A DNA stretch of 64,000 bases from a bacterium (GTDB taxonomy: Bacteria; Armatimonadota; Zipacnadia; Zipacnadales; UBA11051). Both the position numbers and the translations under genes were made by a program. The stretch is taken from the NCBI GenBank assembly GCA_030604405.1, contig JAUVVY010000017.1:1-64000 (forward strand), written 5' to 3'. The notes under the pieces are model-generated. The model saw only the letters and a list, made by a program, of their open reading frames with translations. It made no database searches and was not told the DNA's origin. Numbering within the stretch: position 1 is the first letter of the stretch; the number at the start of each line of letters is the position of its first letter. Shown piece after piece: positions 5,560 through 61,896 of the stretch.

Positions 5560-6672
5560 TTACTCCTGATATATTCGAGGCAGCCTCTTGCCCATGCAGG
5601 AGAAGGTCTCCTCGGGAATGGTGCCAGCGCGGCGGGCCAACTCGTCAACAGTGATCTGTTCTCCGCCTTGCCGACCCATCAGTACAACTTCGTCGCCGGG
5701 CTTGCAGTCAGCCTCCTGGCCGACGGATACGACCGTCACATCCATGGACACGCGCCCGAGCATTGGCCGCCTCCGCCCGCGGATGATGACATCGGCGTTG
5801 TTGGAAAGATGCCGCGAATAGCCGTCCGCATAGCCGACCGGCACTATGCCGATATGTTGGAGTTGCTTGACTTCGTAGGTGCAGCCATAGCCGATCTTGT
5901 CGCCTGGCACAACGCGCTTGACTAGCGCCAGTCGCGCCTTCAGCGTCATCGGCTGTTTCAGTGGCGGCCGCTGGTCACCGGTGACCGCTTCGACTGCGCC
6001 GTAGAGACTGATGCCGGGCCGCACCATGTTGAAAGGCTTGTCGTGGTATAACAGCAATGCGGCGCTGGCGGCCATGTGCCGCCACTTGAAAGGGCCAAGT
6101 ATCTGCTCGGCGACACTGACGGCCTGGCGGAAATTGTCAATCTGAAAAGCCGAGAATTCGGGGTTCAGCCCGGCATCAGCAAAGTGCGAGAAGATGCCCT
6201 CGAAGTCGAGATTGTGCAGGTCCCTGACCTGCCGGCAAAAGTCGGCGATCTGATCGTGACGCACGCCCATCGGGCACATGCCGGTGTCAATCTTGATGTG
6301 AACCGGCAGCGGCTGATTAGCGGCGGCCTGGGAAAAGGCGTGGGCCTCGGCGGGGCTCATGACAGCGGGAGTGAGGTCTGCGGCCACAATCTCCCTGGCC
6401 CGCTGTGGCGCACTGCATCCAAGAATCAACATCCTGCCGCGTACGCCCACGCCGCGCAGCTCCAAACCCTCGTCAACAGTCGCCACCCCGAACCATCCGG
6501 CTCCGGCCTTCTCCAACTCCTGGGTCACCGGCACCGCACCATGACCATAGGCATCGGCTTTGACCACCGGCATTACCGTCGTATGGCCGCCAACACGTTC
6601 CTCTATTATATGGAAGTTGTGGATTATCGCGCCGATGTCAATCTCTAGCCAGGCACGGTCGCGTTTGCTCAT
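5560..6672 (-). CDS. alr: Alanine racemase
   Basis: A PLP enzyme that converts L- to D-alanine for peptidoglycan. The open frame reaches 6810, but the first 46 residues look non-coding; the start ATG 6672 gives MSKRDRAWLEIDIGAIIHN, the usual N-terminus, and 370 residues, the usual length. The PLP lysine sits in VVKADAYGHGA (about residue 38), the phosphate-binding region follows in GISLYGA, and the second catalytic base Tyr is in KIGYGCTYEVKQ. Its stop is 8 bases before the thrB start, forming a two-gene operon. Confidence 0.95.
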   Translation of the reverse strand: MSKRDRAWLEIDIGAIIHNFHIIEERVGGHTTVMPVVKADAYGHGAVPVTQELEKAGAGWFGVATVDEGLELRGVGVRGRMLILGCSAPQRAREIVAADLTPAVMSPAEAHAFSQAAANQPLPVHIKIDTGMCPMGVRHDQIADFCRQVRDLHNLDFEGIFSHFADAGLNPEFSAFQIDNFRQAVSVAEQILGPFKWRHMAASAALLLYHDKPFNMVRPGISLYGAVEAVTGDQRPPLKQPMTLKARLALVKRVVPGDKIGYGCTYEVKQLQHIGIVPVGYADGYSRHLSNNADVIIRGRRRPMLGRVSMDVTVVSVGQEADCKPGDEVVLMGRQGGEQITVDELARRAGTIPEETFSCMGKRLPRIYQE

Positions 6673-6782: not shown

Positions 6783-7892
6783 TCAGCGGGCCTCGACTTC
6801 GGTTACCCACATGTAACCGGGGGCGTTGTCGGAGCCGGCCCGCGCGCCCTGATAAACGCGGATGCGGTCAAGCTCGATTGGCTCGAACTTGAAGGTGGTG
6901 ATGCAATTGTCGCCGCTGCCATCTATTCGCTTGGCATCCAGCTTGACCCAGTCCTCGCCCTCGGGGATCCGCACATCAGTCTCGCGGGGAAGATGATGCC
7001 TCCCCCGGTACAGGGTCCAGAAAACGACCAGCTCGCCGATGGTTCGGGTCTGGCCGAAGCGGATTTCGAGCCAGTGCTCGGCCGAGCTGTCGGCCGAGGC
7101 CCATGAGACATCGTTCAAACGGCCCGGCCCGGGAGGGTAGGCGACCCCGTCATTGAGCGATGTCAGCGATTCGTAATTCGAAAGACAACTGTCCGCCGCT
7201 AAAGTCGCGCCCTGGGCCGCCAGAGCGTAGTTGGTGGCATCGAAGACGTCAAAGCGCACCACGGCTGTCAGCGTGTTCGGTAGCGGAGCCTCGTCGCTGA
7301 CGGACATCTCCACCTTGTGCTTGCCATAACTGAGGTCTGCGGTCAGGACGTAAATGCGCGCCTGGCGCAGACTGATTACGGAAAAAGGCATGTGGCTGGC
7401 ATCAACCGGCTGGTTGTTGATCTTGGCGCTGATCGAGTGCAAGTCAAGCGGGTTCTCGCGCTCGGCCACACCGAAAGCGATCGTTTGCGGGGGGTTTGGG
7501 AACTCGCCGATGTGCTGATCAGTGGATAGAGGCAAGGGGTTGCCATCAACCTTCACGCCCAGAAGTAGCGGCGGCTTGGTGTCATTGAGGTCAATGTGCG
7601 GGCGCGGATTGATGAGGAAGTACATCCGACTCGACCCCGTCTTTTCGGGGTTGAGCTGCAGGACTATCATGCCATCCTGGTGCTCGAAATCCGCTGGACC
7701 CCAATGTCCCTGAGCATCCCTGGTGAATATGCGCAGTTCGCCTGCGGTGTCTGGCGCTGCGACGGCCACCCGGGCCGGCAGTTGACAACTGGCGCTGATT
7801 AGGGTCTCGGCCCGTATGGGCGATGCAAACAGGGCACAAACGAGCAGCGCCGCGACTACGCAGGCATCGGCCACGGCTTTGAACAAGCGCAT
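6783..7892 (-). CDS. Secreted discoidin-like (F5/8 type C) protein, paralogue 1
   Basis: A 369-residue exported protein. Residues 1-28 are a signal peptide ending SPIRA. The N-terminal part is a beta-rich domain, the middle is another beta-sandwich-like stretch, and residues about 235-369 match a discoidin/F5-8 type C carbohydrate-binding fold (DVSWASAD...HWLEIRFGQTRTIGELVVFW ... RIRVYQG). It is preceded by an AGGAGG site and lies 49 bases after its paralogue on the same strand, so the two are likely one transcript. A role in binding polysaccharide or surface glycans is inferred. Confidence 0.8.
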   Translation of the reverse strand: MRLFKAVADACVVAALLVCALFASPIRAETLISASCQLPARVAVAAPDTAGELRIFTRDAQGHWGPADFEHQDGMIVLQLNPEKTGSSRMYFLINPRPHIDLNDTKPPLLLGVKVDGNPLPLSTDQHIGEFPNPPQTIAFGVAERENPLDLHSISAKINNQPVDASHMPFSVISLRQARIYVLTADLSYGKHKVEMSVSDEAPLPNTLTAVVRFDVFDATNYALAAQGATLAADSCLSNYESLTSLNDGVAYPPGPGRLNDVSWASADSSAEHWLEIRFGQTRTIGELVVFWTLYRGRHHLPRETDVRIPEGEDWVKLDAKRIDGSGDNCITTFKFEPIELDRIRVYQGARAGSDNAPGYMWVTEVEAR

Positions 7893-30469: not shown

Positions 30470-30575
30470 CCCTACAACGGCGACGGAGTCGGGCAGGATG
30501 CCCGACCCACGGGATTTTTTTGGGGATGCCCGAGCCGGGCGTCTTGTGAATTATTCGGGCTAAGAGGTGTGTTGG
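30470..30575. repeat. Family A hairpin with T-run plus recurring GTCTTGTGAATTATTCGGG tail
   Basis: A GTCGGGCAGGATGCCCGAC hairpin at about 30488-30506 is followed by CCACGGGATTTTTTT, so it may terminate the MFS-HEAT transcript. The tail GTCTTGTGAATTATTCGGG (about 30540-30559) recurs near 4618, 49643 and 54422. Confidence 0.6.
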
Positions 30576-31580: not shown

Positions 31581-31599
31581 AGTCTTCGGGAAAGGCGCC

Positions 31600-32130
31600 C
31601 TCGGCCCCGGCCTCTCTCCCTGAGGGAGAGGGGAGAACGGCAACGGCAACGGAGTCGGGCAGGATGCCCGACCCACGGGATTTTTTGCGGATGCCCGACC
31701 CACGGGATTCTTTGGGAAGGCCGAGCCACGGGATCTGTTGAGAAGGCCGAGCCACGCCCAAAGGCGCCCTCACCCCCACGCCCCTCTCCCACAGGGAGAG
31801 GGGAGAACGGCAACGCCAAAGCCGCCCTCACCCCCACGCCCCTCTCCCGCAGGGAGAGGGGAGAACGGCAACGACAAAAGCTCACAGGCTGGAAAGCCTG
31901 TGCCACGCGATAATACTTGGGATGCGCGAGCTATCGGATAATAGTTGGGGCACTGTCAGGCTAGAAAGCCCCGCCGTCGCTAAAGCTCCCGCCTTCGCCA
32001 AGGCTTCGGCGGACGAGATGGCGGGCAAGCTTGACCTACGGGATTTTTTGGGGATGCCTGACCCACGCGATAGTTGTTTACGAAAGCCCGAGCCATGCGA
32101 TGATATTTACAATGGCCGAGCTACAGAATT
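31600..32130. repeat. Dense cluster of family A, B and E repeats
   Basis: The 575 bases between the zinc-ribbon gene and yggS contain three family B hairpins (CCCTCTCCC-nnn-GGGAGAGGGGAGAACGGCAACG at about 31615, 31787 and 31845), several family A hairpins and related GGATTTTTT tails, and a family E block at about 31969-32035. The yggS frame stays open back to 31922 through this region. No gene is evident. Confidence 0.7.
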
Positions 32131-32155: not shown

Positions 32156-32872
32156 ATGTCTCAAATAGATATAACACAGAACTTCGGGCAACTCGCAGAT
32201 GAGGTCGCACAAGCGGCCAGCAATGCCGGGCGTGAGCCTCAAGACGTCGCTATCATAACTGTAACCAAGACGCGTAATGTGGCCGAGATATCGGAGGCGG
32301 TCGGCGCGGGCGCGCTCGACCTGGGCGAAAACTACGTCCAGGAAATGGTGCAAAAGCACGAGGAACTCGCCAGCAAAGATCTGCCGCAACAACCGCAGTG
32401 GCACTTCATAGGGCACCTGCAGCGCAATAAAGTCAAGTATATTGTGCACTTCTGCCACTTGATTCATGCTGTGGACAGCGTGCGGCTGATTACTGAACTC
32501 GACAAGCGGGCCGGGCAGAAGCAGCGCAAACAGCGAGTGCTCCTGCAACTCGACCTGGCCCAGGAGGAGACCAAATTCGGGGCCCCAGAGGAGCAATTGC
32601 CGGAGTTGGTGGAGGCGGCTGTGGACTCGCAACACCTCGACTGGCAAGGCCTGATGTGCATGGCCCCCTTCAGCGACAATCCGGAAGATGCACGCCCGTA
32701 CTACGCACGGCTGAGAGAACTGAGAGATAAGCTATCCGACGAAGGCGTCAGTAGCGAGCATTTGCGCCATCTTTCAATGGGCATGACTTCTGATTACAAG
32801 GTGGCCATAGAGGAGGGCGCAACACTGATAAGAGTGGGGCAGGCGATCTTCGGCGCACGGGACTACCACTAA
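32156..32872 (+). CDS. yggS: YggS/YlmE family PLP-binding protein
   Basis: A 238-residue PLP homeostasis protein (Alr N-terminal-like barrel without racemase activity). Landmarks: PLP Lys in ITVTKTRNVAEI (about residue 40), GENYVQEM, HFIGHLQRNKVK, MGMTSDYKVAIEEGATLIRVG and a C-terminal IFGARDY. Start ATG 32156; the in-frame extension to 31922 is repeat DNA. It heads the ylm-type group yggS-sepF-proC-yggT. The last 24 codons occur again at 33779-33849 behind the next gene. Confidence 0.92.
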   Translation: MSQIDITQNFGQLADEVAQAASNAGREPQDVAIITVTKTRNVAEISEAVGAGALDLGENYVQEMVQKHEELASKDLPQQPQWHFIGHLQRNKVKYIVHFCHLIHAVDSVRLITELDKRAGQKQRKQRVLLQLDLAQEETKFGAPEEQLPELVEAAVDSQHLDWQGLMCMAPFSDNPEDARPYYARLRELRDKLSDEGVSSEHLRHLSMGMTSDYKVAIEEGATLIRVGQAIFGARDYH

Positions 32873-32874
32873 AC
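32804..32874 (+). repeat. Direct repeat, copy 1: 3' end of yggS
   Basis: This 71-base segment (last 23 codons, stop and first bases after) matches 33779-33849 with 4 mismatches and no gaps, at a distance of 975 bases. Between them lies a single unrelated gene. It is the intact end of yggS. Confidence 0.85.
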
Positions 32875-33008
32875 CTGCATTGCTCATATCAACTGGGCCG
32901 TGGATGCCTAATCCCAGATGCAAGCGGGGGTGAGGGGCCCGACAACAGAGGCGAGCCGATTTGATATGCGTAATCCCGGTTGAAAGCGGAAGGGAAGGTG
33001 TGAGCACG

Positions 33009-33749
33009 ATGTCCGACCAGCCAAGTCGCCAGGTTCGAGTTGAGTTTACTGGTTCTGGTTTCGCCTTGTTGGGTTGGATGGTTCTAATGTGGTTGGCGAA
33101 CGCGGTCGTGATACCGGCCGCCTGGGCGGCGGCGGCCTTCAACCGCTGGCTCTTCAGCAATCTTAAGTTAAGCGACGGAACCCGAGTTGCCTTTGTCGGT
33201 CGGGGCGAGGAGATCTGGGGCTACTTCGTGGTTGCCGCGCTGCTGGGATGGCTGCCTCAACTGGGACGCTTGGCGGAAGATCAGATGGTGCAGTCTTTTG
33301 CCATCCTGGGCTTGAGCGTGCTCACCCTCCCTTTGACTGCCTGGGTTGGAGTCAAGATAGTTACCTGGTTGGTGCAGCGGATCGAACTCGGCTGCGGCAC
33401 TCGCCTGGACTTCACCGGCGCCTGGGGCGCCTATCTCGGCTGGATGGTGTTGTACTACGTCTCCGCCTACACCATCATCGGGTGGGCGTGGGTCCTCGTG
33501 GCGCTCTTGAACTGGTTCTGCAGCAACGTCCAGGCCGAGGGCAATCAAGTCCGCTTCACCGGTCGCGGAGCAGAGGTGCTATGGCGTGTTCTAGTGGGGG
33601 CGCTGGCCTGCGCGTTCATCATCCCCATCCCCTGGATACTGGCCTGGTGGTACGAATGGTTCGCTAGTTGCCTGGTGATCGAGCGCGCGCCGGCGGTATC
33701 GCCGATAGCTGCCCCTCCTGCGGTGGCCCCGCCGCCCAGCACGCCTTGA
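33009..33749 (+). CDS. Duplicated-half membrane protein, DUF898/YjgN-like
   Basis: A 246-residue membrane protein. Two similar halves each run F-T-G-x-G/W-x2-x-L-G-W-M-V-L ... (R/A)VRFTGRGAE with several transmembrane helices, reminiscent of DUF898/YjgN. Function is unknown. The best start is ATG 33009, 10 bases after GGGAAGG. It sits between yggS and a detached copy of the yggS end, which interrupts the usual yggS-sepF neighbourhood, so it looks like an insertion. Confidence 0.7.
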   Translation: MSDQPSRQVRVEFTGSGFALLGWMVLMWLANAVVIPAAWAAAAFNRWLFSNLKLSDGTRVAFVGRGEEIWGYFVVAALLGWLPQLGRLAEDQMVQSFAILGLSVLTLPLTAWVGVKIVTWLVQRIELGCGTRLDFTGAWGAYLGWMVLYYVSAYTIIGWAWVLVALLNWFCSNVQAEGNQVRFTGRGAEVLWRVLVGALACAFIIPIPWILAWWYEWFASCLVIERAPAVSPIAAPPAVAPPPSTP

Positions 33750-33778
33750 CTTGTGCTTAGAGGCGGTCGCGGTTGGCG

Positions 33779-33849
33779 GCCGTAGAGGAGGGCGCAACAC
33801 TGATAAGAGTGGGGCAAGCGATGTTCGGAGCACGGGACTACCACTAAAC
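33779..33849 (+). pseudogene. Detached 3' fragment of yggS
   Basis: A 71-base copy of the yggS end, in frame to the stop: E-E-G-A-T-L-I-R-V-G-Q-A-M-F-G-A-R-D-Y-H. Against the intact copy there are two silent changes and two conservative ones (Ile to Val, Ile to Met). It has no start codon or upstream part, so it is a remnant. Directly downstream the original order continues with sepF. Confidence 0.85.
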
Positions 33850-33993
33850 AGCTTGATTCGCAGAACCAGATAGTGTATATATACGTAGCAAGCCGTTGCA
33901 ATACAAAGATCGCTCGATCGTGAAGCATCTGCTGTTCGACATCTCGTGACACGACATCTTCACAGCAAGCATCACAGAAACGGAGGCGTTATG

Positions 33994-34461
33994 ATGTCGA
34001 AGCGACTTTGGGCACGTGTTGTGGACTTCTTTGCATTGCCCTCGCGAAGCCCGTACGACGACCCCTACGGCGACCCGAACTACCAGCCAGATCCCGACCC
34101 ACACCCGGATTCTGAGTCGAGAGCGATTCCCGCCCGCTCCGAGCGCAGCGAATTCGCGAACGTCACCATCATCCGGGCAGAACCGACAGATATGGAGGAA
34201 GCCACGGCAGTAGCCGATGAGATCAAACACCGGCTGCCCGTGGTGCTGAATCTGCAAGGGGCCCCGGAGCATGAAGCCACCCGCATTCGCGACTTCCTCG
34301 GCGGCGTAACCTACGGTCTCAATGGGCACATGCGGCGGATTGCGGAATGGGTCTATGTCTGCTCGCCCTTCGACATGCCGGTGGAGCGGCTGGTACTGAA
34401 GGGGACCAGCGTGGGCAGTCGCGAGAGCGAGGACGTCGTCGAGGCGCCGGAGGACTACTAG
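33994..34461 (+). CDS. sepF: Cell division protein SepF
   Basis: A 155-residue FtsZ-binding membrane-associated division protein. The N-terminal amphipathic stretch (LWARVVDFFAL), an acidic/proline linker (PYDDPYGDPNYQPDPDPHPD) and the C-terminal SepF core (ANVTIIRAEPTDMEEATAVA ... PVVLNLQGAPEHEATRIRDFLGG ... AEWVYVCSPFDM) are present. Start ATG 33994 (or 33991) follows GGAGG at 33982-33986. SepF is typical of Terrabacteria and archaea, supporting the taxonomic guess. Confidence 0.93.
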   Translation: MSKRLWARVVDFFALPSRSPYDDPYGDPNYQPDPDPHPDSESRAIPARSERSEFANVTIIRAEPTDMEEATAVADEIKHRLPVVLNLQGAPEHEATRIRDFLGGVTYGLNGHMRRIAEWVYVCSPFDMPVERLVLKGTSVGSRESEDVVEAPEDY

Positions 34462-34620: not shown

Positions 34621-34679
34621 CTATGAATGATGCGCGATAGCGACATCCCCCGTGACGCAGCTATGGTTGTGTTTTGGTT

Positions 34680-35492
34680 ATGGCGAACTGCAAGTCCTAC
34701 GAACTGGCAGTAATCGGATGCGGCGCGATGGGCTCCGGAATGGCGAGCAGCCTCATCGAGGCCGGCGTCATCCCCGCGGAGCAGATTGTCGCGGCCGATA
34801 TTGATGAGGCGCGCCGCCAGGCCATGCAGGAGCTCGGTGTGGCGACCACTGACAGGGCCTCAGAAGCAGTGGCCCAGGCTGCCACGGTGCTGCTGGCGGT
34901 CAAGCCGCAAGTGCTCGATGAGGTGCTGGGCGACATCGCCGGTGCGGTCGGCAGCCGCCTGGTGGTTACAATCGCCGCCGGTGTGCGGATCGCCAGATAC
35001 GAGGCGATGCTGGGGGAGCAGACCAGCATAATTCGTGTGATGCCGAATATTCTGTGCACGGTTGGCGAGGCGGCCAGCGCGTACTGCGCCAATGCGGCCT
35101 GCAGCGCCGAGCAAGTGGCGCGTGTTGATGAGCTGCTCAACGCCGTGGGCACCGCAGTGGCCGTGAAGGAGGAATTGATGGACGCGGTGACCGGGCTTTC
35201 GGGCAGCGGCCCGGCGTTCGTGGCGGTGTTCGTCGAGGCCTTGATAGACGGCGGTGTGGCGGCGGGGCTGTCGCGGGATCAGGCCGCGACGCTGGCCGCG
35301 CAGACGGTGTCGGGCACCGGGCGGTGGCTGCAGGAAAGCGGCTGCTCGCCGAGTGCTCTCAAGGATATGGTAACCTCACCAGGCGGCACGACAATCGCCG
35401 GCATCAAGGCACTGGAAAAAGGCGGGCTGCGCGCTGCTGTGATAGAGGCGGTAGTCGCCGCCGCCAAACGCTCCCGTGAGCTGGGGAGTTGA
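34680..35492 (+). CDS. proC: Pyrroline-5-carboxylate reductase
   Basis: A 270-residue NAD(P)H enzyme making proline from pyrroline-5-carboxylate. The Rossmann motif VIGCGAMGSGMASSL, the MPN motif (VMPNILCTVGEAASAY) and the C-terminal signature SGSGPAFVAVFVEALIDGGVAAGL with SPGGTTIAGIKALE are complete. Start ATG 34680; the ribosome site is weak. yggT follows 6 bases after the stop, so the two are cotranscribed. Confidence 0.95.
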   Translation: MANCKSYELAVIGCGAMGSGMASSLIEAGVIPAEQIVAADIDEARRQAMQELGVATTDRASEAVAQAATVLLAVKPQVLDEVLGDIAGAVGSRLVVTIAAGVRIARYEAMLGEQTSIIRVMPNILCTVGEAASAYCANAACSAEQVARVDELLNAVGTAVAVKEELMDAVTGLSGSGPAFVAVFVEALIDGGVAAGLSRDQAATLAAQTVSGTGRWLQESGCSPSALKDMVTSPGGTTIAGIKALEKGGLRAAVIEAVVAAAKRSRELGS

Positions 35493-44856: not shown

Positions 44857-44897
44857 CTGTCAGGCTGGAAAGCCTGACCCACGCGATTACTATTAAG

Positions 44898-45035
44898 AAG
44901 CCCGAGCTACGCGACAGTATTTGGGAAGCCCGAGCTACGCGACGGTATTCGGGAAGCTCGAGCTACGCGGCAGTATTTGGGAAGCCCGAGCTACGCGACG
45001 GTATTCGGGAAGCCCGAGCCACGCGACAGAAGAAG
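44898..45035. repeat. 28-base tandem repeat, about five copies
   Basis: A 28-base unit (AAGCCCGAGCTACGCGACAG followed by TATTTGGG) repeats head to tail from 44898 with starts at 44926, 44954, 44982 and 45010, with a few substitutions and the last unit cut short. There are no spacers, so it is not a CRISPR. Bases 45020-45079 recur at 45993-46052. Confidence 0.85.
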
Positions 45036-45103
45036 GAATGCTCTACTGCAGCTAGCTATTGACGTACGCAGTCCGAACGCCAATGGCAACGGTGAGGCGG
45101 AGG

Positions 45104-45839: not shown

Positions 45840-46300
45840 GTGGCAAGTCTTGGGCCGGATAGGGAACCCGGATTTTGCGAAAGCAAAATCCACCCTATTC
45901 GGCCCCTCCGAACGACTCAACAACAACGGCGTCGGGCTGGAAAGCCCGACCCACAGAATAGAAAAGGCATTGTCAGGCTGGAAAGCCTGACCCACGCGAC
46001 AGAAGAAGCAGTGCTTTACTGTAGCTACCTATTGACATACACAGTCCGAACGACTCAACAACAACGGCGTCGGGCTGCCCTTCGACAAGCTGCCCTTCGG
46101 CCCTTCGGCAGGCTCCCTTCGACAGGCTCAGGGCGCACGCGGCAGGGCGGACAGGGCAGGGCCTACGGGATGCCCGACCCACGCGCTAAAAGGTTGAGAC
46201 GTTGCCTTTCGGCTTGCCCGCCTTCGCCAAGGCTCCCGCCGTCGCTAAAGCTATGGCGGACGAGATGGCGGGCACGCTTGTGCCACGGGAACATATTTGA
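45840..46300. repeat. Repeat block: variable-hairpin C7, 60-base repeat, D and E units
   Basis: The 644-base gap before the PurS-like gene holds family C copy 7 (45852-45909; apical 9-base-pair hairpin 45870-45878 with 45883-45891 and ATAGGG/CCCTAT outer arms), a family A hairpin pair, the second copy of the 60-base repeat (45993-46052), several family D units (about 46078-46150), and a family E block (about 46210-46285). No gene is evident. Confidence 0.7.
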
Positions 46301-50998: not shown

Positions 50999-51814
50999 AT
51001 GCGAATACCGATGATGGCCGGAAACTGGAAGATGAATTGTGACAATCCTGCAGCCGTCGAACTGGCCAAGGGCATCGTCGAGGGCAGCGCCAACGCGTTA
51101 GGATGTGAAGTCATCGTCTGCCCGCCCTTCACCGCGCTGAGCGCAGTCAATGATGTAACCAAAGATAGCCCCGTGTCGCTGGGCGGCCAGAACTTCTTCT
51201 GGAAAGCCGACGGCGCATTCACCGGCGAGATTGCCGCCGATATGCTGCTTTGCTGCGGCTGCGAGTATGTCATCATCGGCCACTCCGAGCGCCGCGGCCG
51301 CTTCGGTGCGACTGACGAGGACTTCGCCGAAGAGCTGCAGTCAGTATTCGGCGACAACGACGCCACCGTCAGTATCAAGCTGAAGGCCGCCGTGGATGCG
51401 GGCCTCAAGCCGATCGCCTGCTGCGGTGAGCTGCTGTCCGAGCGCGAAAAGGGCATGACCGACGCCATCGTCAGCGACCAGGTGCGGGCCATGCTCGACG
51501 GCTGCAGCGAAGAGCAGTTGCACAGCGTCACTATCGCCTACGAGCCGGTCTGGGCCATCGGCACCGGCGAGGTCTGCGAGGCCGATGAAGCCAACCGCGT
51601 CTGCGGCCTGATCCGTGCCGTAGTGGCCGAGGTCGCCGGGCAAGAGACTGCTGACAATATGCGCATCCTCTATGGCGGCAGTGTCAAGCCGGACAACGTC
51701 GAGGGCCTGATGGCGCAGGCGGAGATTGACGGCGGCTTAGTTGGCGGGGCGTCGCTGAAGGCCGATTCCTTCTGCACGCTGATCGAGGTGGCGGGCAGAG
51801 CCAAGAGGGCGTAA
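50999..51814 (+). CDS. tpiA: Triosephosphate isomerase
   Basis: A 271-residue TIM-barrel enzyme that interconverts the triose phosphates. The Lys-containing GNWKMNC opener, catalytic His in YVIIGHSERR, catalytic Glu in IAYEPVWAIGTGE and phosphate loop ILYGGSVKPDN are all present. It lies in the gap-pgk-tpiA operon. Its last 44 codons have a diverged second copy at 52705-52836, behind the next gene. Confidence 0.97.
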   Translation: MRIPMMAGNWKMNCDNPAAVELAKGIVEGSANALGCEVIVCPPFTALSAVNDVTKDSPVSLGGQNFFWKADGAFTGEIAADMLLCCGCEYVIIGHSERRGRFGATDEDFAEELQSVFGDNDATVSIKLKAAVDAGLKPIACCGELLSEREKGMTDAIVSDQVRAMLDGCSEEQLHSVTIAYEPVWAIGTGEVCEADEANRVCGLIRAVVAEVAGQETADNMRILYGGSVKPDNVEGLMAQAEIDGGLVGGASLKADSFCTLIEVAGRAKRA

Positions 51815-51842
51815 TCCCCACCCCTGCACCATGCCAACGCGA

Positions 51843-51876
51843 AGGCGGCCTCCCGGCGAGGTCGCCTGTTTTCTTT
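51843..51876 (+). terminator. Rho-independent terminator after tpiA
   Basis: AGGCGGCCTC (51843-51852) pairs with GAGGTCGCCT (51858-51867) with one G-T wobble around loop CCGGC, and GTTTTCTTT follows. This is a strong intrinsic terminator 29 bases after the tpiA stop. Confidence 0.85.
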
Positions 51877-51974
51877 GCACCAGGGAGGAGAAACAGTCAT
51901 CGAGCGCGAAATTCATCGTCAAGATAACCCGTCGATGGTCAAGATGCGAAGTCTGCTCTAAAGGAATGAGAGCC

Positions 51975-52661
51975 ATGCGTTTTGAGCTTCCTCCCTTACC
52001 GCCTTCGCTGGAGGGCATCAGAGCCAGAGCGGAATGGGAAAGGCACGACCTGTTGACCCAGCAGCTTGAAGCCTTGCGCGCGCCTCGCCTCATGATCTTT
52101 GTCGACACAAATAATGTTCACCTCGGCTACTACCAGACGCTACACATAGACCTGAAGAAGAATCCGCCCGCGGAACCCCCAAAGCTCGACCCGGTGAAGC
52201 TCCTCGATCATCTTGTCGATTTTCCCCGACACCGCCTAATTCGGGCGTACTGGTATGACGCAGAAGTGGGCAAGGGTTCGTCACTGTACGAGGTTCAACA
52301 GTCCTTGCATGGCGCGGTGCGTGGAACCGCTTTCTGCGATCTCACGTTGGGCGAACATACGGGCGAACGTCAAGAGCGCCGTGAAAAGGGCGTTGACATC
52401 GCACTTGCGGTAGATATGCTGGAACACGCTTTTCGGGACAACTATGATACCGCGATACTGTGCAGCGGCGATTCGGATTTTGTCCCGCTCGTACGAGCCG
52501 TAAAGGCGACCGGGAAGCATGTAATGTGCTCATCATACACCTGCACACTTTCCCAGGACAAAGACATCTTAGAAAGCATAGATTACTTCATTCCCCTGGA
52601 TGGTGTGGACCTAACATGGGCGGAAGAAGAGGAAACGGTAAATGAAGAGGAAGTGCCGTAG
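51975..52661 (+). CDS. NYN-domain (LabA/PIN-like) nuclease
   Basis: A 228-residue NYN-fold protein, a PIN-related nuclease. The acidic metal residues appear in order: [14 protein letters not shown] (Asp), [15 protein letters not shown] (Asp and Asp), and [15 protein letters not shown] (Asp pair). ATG 51975, 9 bases after AAGGA, is the best start; the frame is open upstream through the tpiA terminator. It lies between intact tpiA and a detached copy of the tpiA end, so it is the cargo of an apparent insertion. RNA cleavage, perhaps in defence, is inferred. Confidence 0.85.
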
Positions 52662-52704
52662 CAGGAACATGCGCCGTGTTGTGAGGCGTCCTCTCCGCCT
52701 TAGA

Positions 52705-52836
52705 GTCAAGCCGGACAATGTGGGGGGCTTGATGGCGCAGGCGGAGATTGACGGCGGGCTGGTCGGCGGGGCGTCGCTGAAAGCCGACTCCTTCTGCGCG
52801 CTGATCGAGGTAGCAGGCAGAATCAAGGACCGGTAA
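52705..52836 (+). pseudogene. Detached 3' fragment of tpiA
   Basis: These 132 bases match the last 44 codons of tpiA (51683-51814) without gaps and stop at the same place. Fifteen codons differ; ten changes are silent and the remaining five are mostly in the last six codons. That is the pattern expected from a second, once-functional lineage rather than decay of a local duplicate. The open frame extends upstream to 52642 but has no tpiA similarity before 52705. Confidence 0.9.
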
Positions 52837-52900
52837 TTGCCAAGCGTGTGGCTCAGTAAACAGTTGAAGAACAGGGAGGCGTACGAGCGAGAGATACGAC

Positions 52901-61748: not shown

Positions 61749-61789
61749 AGACGAGAAGAGGGCTGGCCGAGTTGCCAGCCCTCTCGTCT
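61749..61789. other. Strong hairpin next to the glyA remnant
   Basis: AGACGAGA and GGGCTGGC pair with GCCAGCCC and TCTCGTCT around a 6-base loop, with a 3-base bulge. It is 24 bases beyond the glyA remnant stop on the minus strand but lacks a T-run. It may be the native terminator or structured end of glyA. Confidence 0.55.
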
Positions 61790-61812
61790 TGGTCTGCAAG
61801 TCCGTGTTGCGG

Positions 61813-61896
61813 TCAGTCGTCCAGGTCCAGGTAGATCGGGAACTGGGCGCACAAGTCCGCCACCTCGCCGCGGATGCGGGAGATCACGCTCTCGTC
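61813..61896 (-). pseudogene. Detached 3' end of glyA (serine hydroxymethyltransferase)
   Basis: On the minus strand 27 codons plus TGA read D-E-S-V-I-S-R-I-R-G-E-V-A-D-L-C-A-Q-F-P-I-Y, then LDLDD. This matches the C-terminus of GlyA (compare the E. coli end [20 protein letters not shown]). The in-frame codon just upstream is a stop, so the piece is a cut-off end. The intact gene would lie to the right of the window. DNA from here to the right edge looks like inserted accessory DNA. Confidence 0.85.

Follow-up and report, generated by a model that had tools for sequence, protein, structure and literature searches.

A single gene apparently gained behind yggS between two copies of the yggS end, and the same scar at other gene borders of an Armatimonadota genome

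How does a single gene come to lie between yggS and sepF with the end of yggS on both sides of it? The question is raised by what we call the window, that is, the whole 64,000-nt stretch of DNA analysed here, which belongs to a genome (G000; a MAG of 4.37 Mb, 97% complete, in 96 contigs) of an uncultured Candidatus Zipacnadia/WS1 lineage in the Armatimonadota. Every genome compared with it is likewise a MAG. Chiefly it is compared here with the genome of a sister species in the same genus (G005, 87% complete with 8% contamination), a Candidatus Zipacnadia MAG whose corresponding locus is L002 (JALGTY010000024). The locus behind yggS is made up as follows.

32156..32872, plus strand: yggS, intact, encoding a PLP-binding protein of the YggS/YlmE type (238 aa; Pfam Ala_racemase_N, 1e-19; sister protein 88% identical)
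32800..32874, plus strand: proximal copy of the repeat, comprising the last 69 coding nt of yggS, the stop codon and 3-4 nt
32875..33774, plus strand: 900-nt insert, present neither in the sister, where the site is empty, nor in any other relative searched
32875..32990, plus strand: leader of the inserted gene, predicted to form a long hairpin; positions 32894-32980 match, at 86% identity, C63:79161-79247, which lies upstream of another gene on a different contig of this genome
33009..33749, plus strand: inserted gene for a DUF898-like membrane protein, internally duplicated and about 246 aa long (below the Pfam cut-off for DUF898, E 3e-4)
33775..33849, plus strand: distal copy of the yggS end, without start or body; 5 differences, of which 4 or 5 are derived
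33991..34461, plus strand: sepF, the native downstream neighbour (Pfam SepF, 5.5e-18), collinear with the sister
34674..35492, plus strand: proC (Pfam P5CR_dimer, 9e-42)

According to an earlier note on this DNA, the last 71 bases of yggS (32804-32874) recur at 33779-33849, offset by 975 bases and with 4 mismatches, and the repeat was indeed found there. Extended, it spans 75 nt (32800-32874 and 33775-33849, offset 975 bp) with 70 of 75 positions identical (93.3%); a self-BLAST E value of 4e-25 excludes chance, and these two are the only occurrences of the 75-mer within the 2.40 Mb of the window's genome that were read. Codon comparison also agrees with the two silent and two conservative changes previously described for the 71-nt core, CAG/CAA and GGC/GGA being silent and ATA/GTA (I/V) and ATC/ATG (I/M) conservative. 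A fifth mismatch, GTG/GCG (V/A), lies within the 4 bases added on extension. Copies that differ at 5 of 75 bases, and that are far shorter than a read pair, are hardly what a misassembly would produce. An assembly artefact might be suspected in a MAG of 96 contigs, one of whose candidate sites (C22/C23) resembles two alleles of one locus, but we find this reading scarcely credible, since the same anatomy recurs at many sites and in another phylum (locus L028, see below) and the flanks are collinear with an independent assembly.

The best public match of yggS is in the Candidatus Zipacnadia MAG locus L002 (88% protein identity), which is identical to the locus of G005; WS1 and Armatimonadetes MAGs come next. 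The sister's site is empty: its yggS ends in one repeat copy and then runs directly into AGCTTGATTCGCAGAACC, the sequence found 3' of the distal copy in the window. Apart from the insert, yggS, sepF, proC and yggT are collinear between the two genomes (about 89-93%), and Pfam confirmed YGGT near yggS alongside Ala_racemase_N, SepF and P5CR. The previous description of one gene interrupting the yggS-sepF-proC-yggT order is thus borne out, as in the sister sepF follows straight after a yggS with a single end. Conservation of both fragments across a whole phylum, which would have pointed to vertical inheritance, was not seen: in a survey of 46 genomes of the class, 45 of which have yggS, a second partial yggS match, namely the distal fragment, turned up in the window's genome only (1 of 46), in keeping with insertion. 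Taken together, the empty site in the sister, the restriction of the second fragment to the window's genome and the lack of a counterpart of the gene in the four other genus genomes searched place the insertion behind yggS in this lineage, after its split from the sister.

The opposite direction, an ancient gene order from which the sister lost the repeat-flanked gene, has some mechanistic appeal, because direct repeats this long permit a clean deletion that leaves a perfect single copy. The direction of change at yggS is nevertheless one of gain. Two more distant relatives in the genus have no space for a gene between yggS and sepF, the rest of the class has no extra fragment, and the sister's copy equals the proximal copy throughout, with no left/right mosaic, so that we regard ancestral presence followed by loss as very improbable. 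We consider it likely instead that some 900 bp with one accessory gene were gained behind yggS after the sister split, leaving 75 bp of the target on both sides.

Which of the two copies has changed could be read from an alignment with the sister. At all five differing bases (5/5) the copy attached to yggS carries the sister's base, which places the changes in the distal copy, and outgroups side with the attached copy at 4 of the 5. Both copies trace back to the one host gene. In the distal copy, A stands in place of V, while one I is replaced by V and another by M, and two further changes are silent; this is a near-neutral mix of replacement and silent substitutions, and the copy appears to be a drifting scar that adjoins native downstream DNA. 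It had been asked whether yggS originally ended in the distal fragment. Native downstream DNA is indeed attached to that fragment, but it is not the better preserved end, given the agreement of the attached copy with the sister at every differing base.

The DUF898-like gene is the sole ORF between the yggS-end copies and encodes a membrane protein whose halves are 42% identical over 60 aa (E 6e-13). The label DUF898-like, taken over from the earlier note, holds as a weak resemblance only, since the score against DUF898 (PF05987) is 20.3 bits and the gathering cut-off of the family is 28. The gene is single-copy in its own genome and was not found in the four other genus genomes searched; the closest relatives of the protein (40-41% identity) are encoded in two genomes of the same order, among different neighbours. 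A donor was sought in the genome itself, in the four genus relatives and in order-level relatives, and none was found in these. When the ends of all inserts known to us in this genome (see below) were compared with five genomes, a single partial match resulted, that of the leader of the yggS insert to C63:79161-79247. We rejected this stretch as the source of the insert, as it covers 87 nt only, with unrelated sequence on both sides. The leader hairpin itself has a predicted energy of -37 kcal/mol, and its C63 counterpart (L282:1501-1587; 86% over 87 nt) lies upstream of a DUF302-like gene. An Rfam scan of the window, L282 and L243 returned a tRNA only, and the leader matched no Rfam family.

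The same layout had been noted at tpiA, and we found it there as described, with an NYN-domain gene between the copies; glyA provides a third case.

51680..51820, plus strand: tpiA end, proximal copy
51831..52661, plus strand: inserted NYN-domain gene (Pfam NYN, 6e-23)
52702..52842, plus strand: tpiA end, distal copy
61757..61896, minus strand: glyA end with terminator, distal copy; the attached copy is at contig position 65543-65682

At glyA, 3.6 kb separate the copies, the attached one lying just beyond the window; the whole arrangement runs from 61757 to the end of the window and on through C55:64001-65682 (L091). In the sister, the contig ends inside the tpiA repeat. Two relatives have contigs that are interrupted within or close to the tpiA stretch (51680-52842).

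We scanned 2.40 of the 4.37 Mb (55%) of the genome for direct repeats of 60-350 nt, spaced 0.5-5 kb apart and with dissimilar flanks. The census yielded 8 strict cases plus 3 that fail only the uniqueness filter, giving eleven sites with target repeats of 75-261 nt and inserts of 0.88-3.6 kb. Besides yggS they comprise tpiA, glyA and six to eight other gene borders, and both 3' and 5' gene ends are involved. With the outer edges of eight further sites as queries, the sister was found to be empty not only at yggS but also at glyA, C44:70 kb, C44:14 kb, C2 and C3 (six sites in all), and at both C44 sites and C3 the spacing of the flanks in the sister equals exactly one repeat. At C3 the repeat extends beyond the stop codon and takes in the first part of the following gene. 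The anatomy seen at yggS is repeated at many unrelated borders and around unrelated cargo, the insert proteins recognised being NYN RNase-like, apiosidase-like, YfhO-like, zinc-ribbon and carboxypeptidase-regulatory-repeat proteins.

Several other repeats were set aside. The tandem paralogues C29, C44:30 kb and C64 were taken out of the census, and C22/C23 was rejected as a further case (C23), its cyclase genes being allelic or paralogous. Contigs C22 (L118) and C23 (L119) end in the same 127 nt, begin almost identically and carry cyclase genes that resemble two alleles, one of them with an ankyrin-repeat gene. Contig C5 (L103; 4.4 kb) has identical 125-nt ends around chromosomal genes such as glyQ and is probably an assembly loop. 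In the window, a 73-nt repeat (45007-45079 and 45980-46052; 86%, 973 bp apart) surrounds a methyltransferase gene and was left out of the count owing to its overlap with dispersed repeats. Many such dispersed intergenic repeats occur in the window at, for example, 95-271, 1424-1468, 30483-30527, 31588-31873 and 44867-45037, with cores such as GGAAGCCCGACCCACGGGATTT and CCCTCTCCC...GGGAGAGGGG.

Repeats at gene ends bring to mind site-specific integration. Many islands that integrate into tRNA and protein genes target gene ends and bring a replacement end, and islands in 3' gene ends likewise duplicate the gene end around the insert. An integrative element of this kind, possibly mobilised in trans, would account for the position of the repeats and for one border that holds a different insert in the sister; the 3.6-kb glyA insert moreover encodes a small HTH protein that weakly resembles phage replication initiators and replication-initiator domains. 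The same insert encodes several proteins without known family. However, neither Pfam nor PHROGs scans gave an integrase, transposase or recombinase match among the main proteins of most inserts, including those at yggS and tpiA, and across the 11 sites there was no junction motif, no k-mer being common beyond random windows; att-type integration is therefore unlikely. In addition, the repeats vary in sequence and length (75-261 nt), and the cargo is unrelated and ordinary. Unlike islands in 3' ends, the sites lack an integrase or a fixed attachment sequence, and lie in different genes and at both gene ends. We thus hold a site-specific element to be very improbable, and infer that the event at yggS was an accident of recombination or repair and not the act of an enzyme encoded by the insert.

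One border is occupied differently in the two sister species. At C33 they carry unrelated inserts (G005, L243:1607-2876; G000, C33:34679-37419), each flanked by duplicates of one and the same gene end with its terminator. The last 320 nt of the sister's insert match C24:9265-9583 of G000, and the insert meets the tail across a 6-nt microhomology (GGGCTG), the one junction with a known source. It is conceivable, if rather unlikely, that the lineage has an unusually active route for adding single genes at core-gene borders, by which borders are re-used by different genes in sisters in the manner of integrase-free, cassette-like docking.

For comparison we scanned 0.83 Mb of yggS loci from other phyla. 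This gave two hits, of which L019 was rejected as a control case for being a REP/RAYT-like element, and L028 was retained. The resulting enrichment, about 4.6 versus 1.2 per Mb, is indicative only, since this rough control covers little sequence and was selected by way of yggS. In L028, from a Bacteroidota MAG, 179 nt of the yggS end (6436-6614 and 7579-7757) flank a gene for a 235-aa protein without known family, and the copies differ by 6-7 silent and 2 replacement changes.

How such a scar might arise can be put as follows. At yggS, about 900 bp comprising the DUF898-like gene and its own leader would have been added behind the gene after the sister split, so that the yggS end, 75 bp of target, came to flank both sides of the insert. 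The duplicated stretch spans the yggS end, and because of this both yggS and the sepF side would be left undamaged; the distal copy, having no start, would now drift. We favour recombination in which one end was guided by homology or by copying of the target and the other was joined by chance or microhomology. Candidate routes are homology-facilitated illegitimate recombination, integration of a small circle, and template switching, and they fall into two families. In the first, the target would be copied in the event itself, through template switching at a broken fork or small-circle integration, leaving identical ends that later drift; the pattern of changes at yggS, the C3 repeat that overruns the stop codon and the C33 case support it. 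In the second, a homologous gene end carried by foreign DNA would recombine while the other end of that DNA joins illegitimately; in its favour are differences at tpiA and L028 that are mostly silent, the want of nearly identical pairs and the presence of ComEC in the genome. The two families can coexist and are not mutually exclusive. Ku was not detected in the genome, which within its 97% completeness argues against Ku-dependent capture in a staggered break; taken with the presence of ComEC, this negative result fits uptake followed by recombination more readily than end joining that depends on Ku.

Applied to the locus in question, the foreign-donor route says that a donor with a DUF898 gene behind its own yggS recombined within the yggS end while its other end was joined just upstream, so that one of the two tails is foreign. 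That the copies differ would then simply reflect that two species differ. We consider this proposal possible but short of probable. The conserved part of the tpiA copies differs by about 11 silent and 2 replacement changes, and these, like the counts at L028, look as though the copies had diverged under selection; over 104 nt, the attached yggS end shares 99% identity with the sister, compared with about 91% for the whole gene; and this mechanism is also the one proposed for gene ends displaced in Vibrio T6SS clusters (PMC5361080). Yet the derived changes of the distal yggS copy, about 3 replacement to 1-2 silent, are what neutral decay gives, a repeat that reaches into the following gene, as at C3, is to be expected if the target was copied and not if the tail came from a donor, and no donor with such a gene order was found.

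Gain with duplication of the target, our preferred account, also meets with observations that sit uneasily with it. Within pairs the copies are 4-14% apart, and the 2.40 Mb read held no young pair that is still nearly identical, contrary to what a steady course of duplication followed by drift should produce. Nor, when all sites are taken together, do the changes clearly gather in the distal copies: displaced copies have about 15 polarised replacement changes and 12 silent ones, attached copies about 11 and 7. Lastly, the mostly silent differences at tpiA and L028 look as if both ends had formerly belonged to functional genes. Over all sites, replacement and silent changes number 41 to 35, and these counts do not separate the two leading mechanisms.

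Homology-facilitated illegitimate recombination was reportedly described by de Vries and Wackernagel in 2002, Prudhomme et al. in 2002 and Meier and Wackernagel in 2003. It adds foreign DNA via one homologous anchor and one illegitimate junction, whereas at the sites here anchor and foreign donor are putative. Apart from the Vibrio T6SS clusters, it has been proposed for displaced 3' ends at Rhs loci (PMC2884548). In Arabidopsis, transposed genes are single non-transposon genes flanked by direct repeats of target sequence that occurs once in the empty site of the sister, and the authors propose insertion of a circular product; that system differs in being eukaryotic and in that parent loci were often found, while none was found here (PMC2869330).

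Among the closest precedents is what has been termed insertion with long target duplication. It was recognised when two H. pylori strains were compared, needs no transposase and often involves restriction-modification genes (Nobusato et al. 2000, Gene 259:99-108, which we know through PMC1643837, PMC3031569, PMC3154945 and PMC4978471); the target duplications are long and variable in the accounts of later papers (PMC1643837, PMC3031569, PMC3154945). As those later papers give the definition, the anatomy here fits it: the sister has an uninterrupted target with one repeat copy (six sites), the repeats of 75 to 261 nt far exceed the target duplications of transposons and vary by site, and scans of the main proteins of most inserts gave no transposase or integrase. 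It departs from the H. pylori cases, as they are described there, in its cargo of DUF898-like, NYN, apiosidase, YfhO and zinc-ribbon proteins, restriction-modification genes being a frequent but not obligatory cargo of such insertions, and in its occurrence many times in one genome of an uncultured Armatimonadota lineage. What stands out is thus the number of sites in one genome, the cargo other than restriction-modification genes and the phylum; the kind of mechanism appears to be already known but little studied.

To our knowledge, most bacterial gene gain leaves no visible mechanism. Here, about eleven dated and non-disruptive insertions in a single genome can be read from their scars, with empty sites in the sister and cargo unrelated to mobility or restriction. 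Long target duplication is, by this evidence, not peculiar to Helicobacter or to restriction-modification genes, and the entry of single genes into chromosomes becomes testable by the comparison of strains.
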